From Sulfurospirillum sp. (GTDB taxonomy: Bacteria > Campylobacterota > Campylobacteria > Campylobacterales > Sulfurospirillaceae), in assembly GCA_016744795.1 (NCBI GenBank), contig JADGDR010000008.1, forward strand, positions 44,969 through 108,968: 64,000 nt of DNA, in the 5' to 3' direction. Under the pieces are notes generated by a model that was not told the DNA's origin, did not search any database, and was given only the letters and a program-made list of their open reading frames with translations. Position 1 is the stretch's first letter. Each line of letters starts with the position of its first letter. Positions 15,965 through 57,074 of this stretch are shown here, one piece after another. Position numbers and translations under genes: made by a program.

Positions 15965-16249
15965 ATGCAAGTAAACGCAAATTCTATGATGGCTCATCAA
16001 AATTGGATGAGTAATAATGCAAACAATGTTGCGAATGTAAATACAGAAGGTTTTAACTCCACGCAAACTACGATACAAAATCCGAGTGAAGGGAGTGTTC
16101 AAGCTGTTTCGTCTTCAACTGAGACTAGTACTAATCTAGCTCGTGAACTTACTGAAGAAATTCCTATTGAAAAAGCTCATGGAGCAAATGCAGTAGCTGT
16201 TAAAGCTTATGATGAGATGATAGGCTCTTTAATCGATTTGAGTGTTTAG
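15965..16249 (+). CDS. Short flagellar rod/hook-like protein (N- and C-terminal motifs only)
   Basis: ANNVANVNTEGFNS near the N-terminus and NAVAVKAYDEMIGSLIDL at the C-terminus resemble rod/hook terminal motifs; 94 aa. Confidence 0.75.
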   Translation: MQVNANSMMAHQNWMSNNANNVANVNTEGFNSTQTTIQNPSEGSVQAVSSSTETSTNLARELTEEIPIEKAHGANAVAVKAYDEMIGSLIDLSV

Positions 16250-17265
16250 ATAATCAGCATTGCATCACCATAAGAGAAAAATCTATATTTTTTCTCTACA
16301 GCAATTTTATATATTTCTAACGATTTTTCTATTCCTACGAAAGATGCAACAAGCATTAGAAGTGTTGATTTTGGTAAATGAAAGTTTGTCAAAAGATGAT
16401 TAACACGTTGAGGCTTATTATTCGGATGTAAAAAGAGATCACTTTTTCCTGTACGTAAGTTTTCTCTAACATAGTATTCAACTGTTCTTGTTACTGTTGT
16501 TCCAACTGCAAGTATAGGTTTGTTTGAATCTATTGCTTTGCAAGTTGATTCAGGAATCTCATAAAATTCTGAGTGCATAACGTGATCTTTTATATGTTCT
16601 GCTTCTACAGGTTTAAAAGTTCCAGCTCCTACATGTAAGGTTAAAAAATGAGTTTTGTATCTTTTTTTTAGCTCTTTAAACATGTTATCTGTAAAGTGAA
16701 GAGATGCTGTAGGAGCAGCTACTGCTCCACGTTCTTTAGAAAAGACTGTTTGATATTGTGTTTCATCTTCTTTATTGTCTTCACGTTTTATGTAAGGAGG
16801 AAGGGGAATATGTCCTATTTTATCTAAGATATTAAATAATTTATCACTATTGATTGCTATTTTATTGCAGTAAAAAGATACTACGCGAGTTCCATCTTCT
16901 TGTAGTGATATAACTTTTGCACTTAAGCCTTCCTCAAAGATGAGTTCCATGTCTTTTTTTACACGTCCTTTTATGTAAACACAAAATTTTTCATCTTGAA
17001 GTGGAGAGTTTAGTAAAAGTTCTATCTTTCCACCACTCTTTTTTTTACCAAAAACTCTAGCTTTGATTACTTTTGTATCGTTTAAAAGTATATTTACATC
17101 TTTATCAATAAACTCAAAAAGTTTTGAAAAAACACTATGTGTTATGGAATTGTTTTTTGTGTTAAAAACTAGTAGTTTTGCACTGTCACGAGGAGATGCC
17201 GGAAACGCTGCTATAAGAGATTCCGGTAGTTTATAATCGTAACTTGATTTTAAAAGAGGGTTTAT
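16246..17265 (-). CDS. queA: S-adenosylmethionine:tRNA ribosyltransferase-isomerase QueA, apparent ATA start
   Basis: The track ORF starts at an internal Met (16950). The same frame is open upstream to 17265 and reads (I)NPLLKSSYDYKLPESLIAAFPASPRDSAKLLVFNTKNNSITHS...NDTKVIKARVFGKKKSGGKIELLL, the conserved QueA N-terminus, with no ATG/GTG/TTG among the 105 codons. Confidence 0.9.
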   Translation of the reverse strand: MNPLLKSSYDYKLPESLIAAFPASPRDSAKLLVFNTKNNSITHSVFSKLFEFIDKDVNILLNDTKVIKARVFGKKKSGGKIELLLNSPLQDEKFCVYIKGRVKKDMELIFEEGLSAKVISLQEDGTRVVSFYCNKIAINSDKLFNILDKIGHIPLPPYIKREDNKEDETQYQTVFSKERGAVAAPTASLHFTDNMFKELKKRYKTHFLTLHVGAGTFKPVEAEHIKDHVMHSEFYEIPESTCKAIDSNKPILAVGTTVTRTVEYYVRENLRTGKSDLFLHPNNKPQRVNHLLTNFHLPKSTLLMLVASFVGIEKSLEIYKIAVEKKYRFFSYGDAMLII

Positions 17266-40095: not shown

Positions 40096-40194
40096 TCAAG
40101 TTAAAGAAAACAGTAAATCTAAATACGACCGTAAGGTTGTGCTTTAGTGCAATGAATTTAACTTGGACTTGTTCAAGTTAAAGAAAACAGTAAA
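40096..40194 (+). repeat. grpE-dnaK spacer with 22-bp direct repeat and inverted repeat
   Basis: TCAAGTTAAAGAAAACAGTAAA at 40096-40117 and 40173-40194; TTTAACTTG (40157-40165) complementary to CAAGTTAAA in both copies. Confidence 0.85.
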
Positions 40195-40211
40195 ATAAAA
40201 AAGGAAATAGT

Positions 40212-56240: not shown

Positions 56241-56888
56241 TTAGCCAACTTTAAAACTCTTTTTTGTTTTACAGTGTTTTTGTAAAAAACACTCAGTTTC
56301 GCATTTTGGTTTGATTGCCTTACATATATATCTTCCAAAAAGAACCATGCCTTGATGTAGTACATGTAAATCGGTTTTAAATTTCTTTGTTAATTCTTCT
56401 TCTGTTTTAATTGCTGTTTTTGCATCACTTAATCCTAGTCTATGTGCTACACGAAATACATGAGTATCAACAGCCATCAAATTTGCTCCAGCGTACTCAA
56501 TCATAACTACATGTGCTGTTTTTTGTCCAACACCAGCTAAAGTTATGAGATCCTTTTCATTAATAGGTATTTGACCATCGAAGTGTTCTACAACCCTATT
56601 CGCCATTTTGATGAGATTTTTTGCTTTATTGTTAAAAAAAGAGCAAGACTGTATAATCTTTTTTATATCATCTAACTCTGCAATAGCCAGTTTATAAACA
56701 TCAGGATATTTTAAAAAAAGTGTTGGTGTTATGATATTTACTCTTTTATCCGTACATTGAGCTGATAACATTACTGCAATAGTAAGTTCATATAGGTTTT
56801 TATAGTTTAGCTCTGTAACTGCATTTGTATAATTTTTTATTAAAATATCTTTTATTTTAGTAATTTCTAATTTTGTAGCTTTTTTTAT
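56241..56888 (-). CDS. nth: Endonuclease III, apparent ATA start
   Basis: The track ORF begins at internal MLSAQCTDKRV. The same frame is open upstream and reads (I)KKATKLEITKIKDILIKNYTNAVTELNYKNLYELTIAV, the expected N-terminus; HhH and Cys cluster (C..C..CFLQKHC) at the C-terminus. Confidence 0.9.
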   Translation of the reverse strand: MKKATKLEITKIKDILIKNYTNAVTELNYKNLYELTIAVMLSAQCTDKRVNIITPTLFLKYPDVYKLAIAELDDIKKIIQSCSFFNNKAKNLIKMANRVVEHFDGQIPINEKDLITLAGVGQKTAHVVMIEYAGANLMAVDTHVFRVAHRLGLSDAKTAIKTEEELTKKFKTDLHVLHQGMVLFGRYICKAIKPKCETECFLQKHCKTKKSFKVG

Positions 56889-57074
56889 TACATTTCTCCT
56901 TTAGCTTGAATAAACTCAAGCTAAATTTTCTTTAACTAAAGTTATTACTCCAGCACAGAAAACATTTATAGTATTGTATCAAAATATTAACTAAGTGTTT
57001 AATATAGTTTCGTATAATCATATTTTAATTCAAACATTAGTAAAATAAGACAAATTTTATAAAGAAGGAAAGAT

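Follow-up and report, generated by a model that had tools for sequence, protein, structure and literature searches.

A putative AUA start of nth at the 3' end of a dispersed two-hairpin, Shine-Dalgarno-carrying element in Sulfurospirillum

Initiation at an AUN codon other than AUG is known from the infC gene of E. coli, which starts at AUU. Short dispersed repeats of bacterial genomes include the REP/BIME, BOX, RUP and Correia elements, and structured 5' leaders of the ompA type stabilise mRNA or tune initiation. In S. aureus, extended Shine-Dalgarno (SD) sequences accompany the AUA starts of infC and ccpN, the AUA start of citZ is restricted to a lineage whereas that of ccpN is conserved, and the non-canonical sites that were tested gave about 10-30% of the expression from AUG (PMC13009471). 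In this paper, we describe a putative AUA start of nth, the gene of endonuclease III, in a stretch of 64,000 nucleotides (the window) from a Sulfurospirillum sp. genome (G000), together with a dispersed RNA element, here called the cassette, a copy of which ends at this codon, and a second gene, queA, with an ATA start. The present case resembles infC, ccpN and citZ of S. aureus and infC of E. coli in that a strong SD sequence accompanies an AUN start that is not canonical.

The nth reading frame and its start

The nth frame is open on the minus strand from 56900 to 56241, its earliest ATG, GTG or TTG is the ATG at 56771, and between the upstream stop and codon 40 none of these three codons is found. 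A preliminary description of this DNA had claimed that the frame encodes 39 more residues ahead of the Met at 56771 without a canonical start, that an ATA stands at the expected start with AAAGGAG 7 nt upstream, and that the nearby ATG belongs to another frame and meets a stop directly; the frame, the sequence (which reads ATG TAA TAA) and the homologues agree with these claims. The coding sequence reconstructed from the ATA spans 56241..56888 (minus strand), as judged by homology and by selection on codons 2-39. The proposed start codon, homologous to the start codon of the relatives, lies at 56886..56888, the strong AAAGGAG SD sequence at 56896..56902, at the correct spacing of 7 nt, and the out-of-frame ATG at 56891..56893, 2 nt after GGAG (all on the minus strand).

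We compared the start region among 63 distinct Campylobacterota frames, taken from the relatives' loci and from named genomes and read at the same codon. The Nth proteins of relatives typically begin M-K-K-A-T exactly at the codon aligned with the ATA, and within the genus an ATG is found there in G002 and G005 (M-K-K-A-T) and in G004 (M-K-Q-A-T). Over the whole set this codon is ATG in 34 of the 63 frames and GTG or TTG in five, and most of the others start a few codons off. A canonical start anywhere between the upstream stop and codon +5 is lacking only in G000 (ATA) and G035 (ATC); three Campylobacter-type frames were flagged as well, but their ATG start lies close to this point. The apparent ATC start of G035, which belongs to another family of the order, has GGGAG 5 nt upstream. 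No relative shares the ATA, so that the non-canonical codon is not conserved at nth; such conservation is a mark of regulated starts, and AUA can be used without it. We propose an AUA start for nth on three grounds: it is where the conserved protein begins, the frame offers no canonical alternative, and a full SD sequence is well spaced from it. The evidence for this ATA comes from one genome, of one strain of the species.

Codons 2-39 show dN of 0.13-0.20 against dS of 0.74-1.31 in three comparisons within the genus, i.e. dN/dS of about 0.15-0.18, which indicates purifying selection and hence that these codons are translated. This bears on the possibility that the start has been lost and that nth is an early pseudogene in this species. 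Two genus-mates that are 98-99% complete, G001 and G003, have no close Nth match, and the gene may therefore be dispensable; however, the frame is of full length, its dN/dS is about 0.1-0.2, and an alignment with 29 relatives shows that Nth keeps GVGQK (the helix-hairpin-helix Lys motif), VDTH (the catalytic Asp motif) and the four-cysteine Fe-S loop. The additional residue of this loop (C-X6-C-X3-C-X5-C) was considered as a sign of decay and rejected, since the variant occurs in several of the 29 relatives. We give an early pseudogene a slim chance.

A dispersed cassette in front of nth

An alignment with the genus-mates G002, G004 and G005 shows an insertion of about 79 nucleotides in the window, placed exactly at the nth start between a conserved promoter-like region and the coding sequence, and including a hairpin that abuts the SD sequence. 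A covariance model match of 38.9 bits, together with the alignment, identifies this segment as a copy of the cassette at 56886..56961 (minus strand), which with a few flanking bases makes up the sequence missing in the genus-mates. Its hairpin 1 is half degraded, and the stem of hairpin 2 (56900..56925, minus strand) adjoins and slightly overlaps the SD sequence. Upstream, TACAAT at 56973..56978 (minus strand), the putative promoter box, aligns with the TATAAT or TATACT box of the genus-mates, in which the box ends 6-8 nt before the ATG of nth. Judged from this -10-like box alone, the nth mRNA of the genus-mates looks leaderless or near-leaderless. An ATG at about 56966 was considered as a remnant of the original start and rejected, as other cassette copies likewise have AAATGT at their 5' edge.

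The cassette was defined from related copies in G000 and other genomes, and has a consensus of about 75 nt in the form ACTCTCGCC-AAA-GGCGA AGCTTTAGT GAGAGGAA TTT-stem-loop-stem-AAAGGAGAAATNAAATG. In an alignment of 17 copies, first chosen by their fixed flanks and not by their stems, the linkers and the SD sequence are constant, whereas substitutions in both stems compensate each other; 96% of the cells are paired, and 13 of the 17 pairs have changed on both sides. The covariation score is 0.63, against 0.21 +/- 0.03 for shuffled alignments (none of 500 as high), and slid controls score far lower. The two hairpins thus covary strongly, as a conserved structured RNA does. Against Rfam 15, no match above a gathering score was found in the window, nor did any of eight cassette loci searched at a relaxed threshold exceed a family's gathering score. 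A literature search on dispersed repeats of this group and on SD-carrying repeats returned nothing close.

As an over-strict pattern gave four sites, copies were counted with the covariance model, scoring at most 110 candidates per genome. By this count there are about 40 copies in G000, 8-66 in its genus-mates, and more than 100 in each of G017 and G019 among the at most 110 candidates scored; genus g3 has 0-3, and in the seven genomes inspected a copy lies directly 5' of argF. Driving by a Y1 (RAYT-type) transposase was rejected, because the copy number does not track Y1 numbers: PF01797 has no match in G003, G021 and G023, with their roughly 44-54 copies, but is present in the g3 genomes, with 0-3. 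When 30 copies of G000 were read, 25 were found in sense orientation directly ahead of an ORF that has 45 codons or more, two further copies precede rpmJ and nth, and two others are tandem neighbours of these. The genes behind them, named by eye from their N-termini, include the housekeeping genes typA, tuf, ftsZ, dnaK and atpC as well as rplL, leuB, leuC, purA, ndk and rpmF, and the copy 5' of dnaK (35.8 bits by the covariance model) is the second one in the window, at 40122..40196 on the plus strand. Among 30 nth loci, only those of G000, G012 and G023 carry a cassette. G012 and G023 belong to another genus and their cassettes have a different stem, which suggests separate gains. In G023, tandem 47-bp partial copies lie in front of nth (L016:851-939), and similar tandem copies occur in G000 (L264/L269 and L257/L278).

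The 3' ends of the 30 copies read bear directly on the ATA. Nine end in the ATG of the gene and ten in ATA; in eight of these ten the gene's own start lies 13-32 nt further on, often with its own SD sequence, and the ninth (L260) has no gene assigned. In the tenth copy, that of nth, no canonical start follows the ATA, which falls on the conserved first codon itself. If the A at 56886 were a sequencing or assembly error for ATG, the cassette would be real and the start ordinary; a single base change restores ATG, the nine ATG-ending copies provide a precedent, and the ATA is found in no relative. On the other side, the ten ATA-ending copies provide the opposite precedent, the site is internal to a 121-kb contig, the assembly looks clean (of 749 genes, a single one was conspicuously broken, as if by a frameshift), and ATA is an accepted start in queA (see below). 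On balance we regard such an error as unlikely, though it deserves some weight.

The same region could be read in another way, namely that translation begins at the AUG at 56893 and terminates directly at the UAA, and that the ribosomes then initiate anew at the overlapping AUA. The AUG UAA does lie 5 nt before the AUA; however, 2 nt from GGAG is too close for normal SD use, and the arrangement is absent from the other cassette copies, and we give this re-start almost no credence.

Other repeats were noted along the way. The palindrome TTTACATGTAAA occurs 310 times in the G000 genome, against four for the reversed control, and up to 791 times elsewhere in the family (G007), while genus g5 and other families hardly contain it; it is seen in many genes of the window, as LHV words in their proteins, and looks like a lineage-specific highly iterated palindrome. 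TTACATGTAA occurs 200 times in 864 kb, against four expected from base composition. A ribosomal protein S6-like frame at 101-604 of the window (minus strand) has a C-terminal tail with repeated VVEETP units.

AUA-type starts of queA and the rest of the genome

The second gene of the window with an ATA start is queA (16246..17265, minus strand, by homology), whose ATA at 17265-17263 overlaps the tatC stop codon. At the homologous place ATA is found in G000, G001, G002 and G004 (genus g1), in G006, G010 and G013 (g2), and in G007, G011, G016, G018, G020 and G024 (g3), and is replaced by ATC in G022 (g3) and by ATT in G008 (g4). In G005 (g1) the ATA is at the same place, but an in-frame ATG lies upstream, and most members of genus g5 have a TTG one codon further upstream. 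In g3, which includes several closed genomes, the frame has a stop one codon upstream of the ATA-type start, which leaves no room for a canonical start; since the first canonical codon further on is reached only after about 31 codons in G007, G011 and G020, a non-canonical start is forced. Judging from these alignments, ATA, ATC or ATT is the likely or the only possible start of queA in four of the family's five genera, closed genomes included, and this conserved start in the same family makes AUA initiation at nth credible. The earlier suggestion that two ATA starts in one window are not a single error thus holds for queA, where conservation of the ATA in other genera excludes errors, while at nth a base error is still a rival.

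The same description had proposed relaxed initiation or regulation by IF3, to be checked by a scan for further ATA, ATT or ATC starts and by inspection of infC. Our coding-signal survey of G000 covered 864 kb and 749 genes (32% of the genome), with a sensitivity of about 30% of lost starts. Only nth and queA stood out as strong unexplained cases, in which a long coding signal precedes the first canonical start; the other frames were a SelW-like selenoprotein, a lipoprotein gene with a frameshift, a decayed fragment and some short, marginal extensions. The SelW-like frame (L122:6990-7202) follows directly after an in-frame TGA and is probably a selenoprotein, and G000 may use UGA for selenocysteine. 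An SD-based survey adds a weaker third case, an RND efflux-type gene (G000:C7:319370-319963; L321, minus strand), which, from a comparison with relatives, apparently begins at ATA. One codon upstream of this ATA the relatives carry ATG, TTG or GTG and G000 an AAG, and TAGGAG precedes the ATA at a distance of 6 nt. In the closed genome G016, no frame was flagged by the coding-signal survey in 400 kb and 320 genes; its queA, with an ATA start, was in the sample, and thus the survey also misses true cases.

These counts bear on a general relaxation of initiation in this organism, through an altered IF3 or ribosome, that would make ATA starts common. Such a change would fit the use of ATA by nth, queA and possibly the efflux-pump gene, and a survey that detects only about 30% of lost starts would overlook many; the cases are nevertheless few in 749 genes and none among those of G016. 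An altered IF3 was rejected: the G000 protein is nearly identical to that of the genus-mate G001, the C-domain segment FRVFLRGREM is intact, and infC starts with TTG, as in the family; nothing in it points to altered start discrimination. In the third of the genome scanned, nth and queA are the strong cases and the efflux gene a weaker one, and relaxed initiation or a changed IF3 is unsupported; we consider a general relaxation extremely improbable. The AUA of nth has a local cause as well, the cassette at its start codon, and does not indicate that start selection has changed throughout the genome.

Origin of the nth start and comparison with known systems

The SD sequence of nth, the hairpin against it and the AUA together form the 3' end of a cassette copy that is absent from three genus-mates. 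Our preferred reading, to which we give a probability of roughly three in four, is that nth is translated from the AUA at 56888 after the cassette supplied a leader and an SD sequence, the ATA itself possibly being cassette-derived. The ancestral state would have been that of the genus-mates, a leaderless or near-leaderless mRNA started from AUG; insertion of the cassette would then have given the mRNA a structured leader and a strong SD sequence, which would let fMet-tRNA(CAU) start at AUA in spite of the third-position mismatch. The AUA may either have arrived with the cassette or have arisen later from ATG. By analogy with the described cases, Nth expression is probably lowered several-fold and IF3-sensitive, and not abolished.

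More tentatively, and with somewhat less than even confidence, we suggest that a portable module of two covarying hairpins, an SD sequence and a start position spreads between genes in this family and replaces a gene's own initiation signal at the start codon, making a leaderless gene SD-led and its AUG dispensable, as at nth, and that the AUA, AUC or AUU of queA is kept in parallel as a translational brake. If the cassette sets mRNA stability or the initiation rate, pairs of genes with and without the insertion would be a natural experiment on the co-evolution of leader and start codon. Gene callers miss or truncate such genes, and nth would lose 39 residues. With queA, the phylum gains an AUA-type start conserved in evolution, where the searchable literature yielded none, and the cassette is a dispersed RNA element, absent from Rfam, that fronts essential genes.

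Among the known non-canonical starts, queA resembles the conserved ccpN of S. aureus and nth the lineage-restricted citZ; the present cases differ from those of S. aureus and E. coli in phylum and in the genes concerned, in that the SD sequence of nth comes from a dispersed element, and in that the nth start is known from sequence alone. Like the REP/BIME, BOX, RUP and Correia elements, the cassette is short and palindromic and occurs in many copies, in uneven numbers between related genomes; unlike them, the copies examined here stand in sense orientation right ahead of start codons, carry an SD sequence and covary in both stems, and, unlike RAYT-type REP, it has no link to Y1 transposase numbers. 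With the ompA-type leaders it shares hairpins just upstream of the SD sequence of highly expressed genes; unlike those leaders, it is one homologous module common to dozens of unrelated genes.
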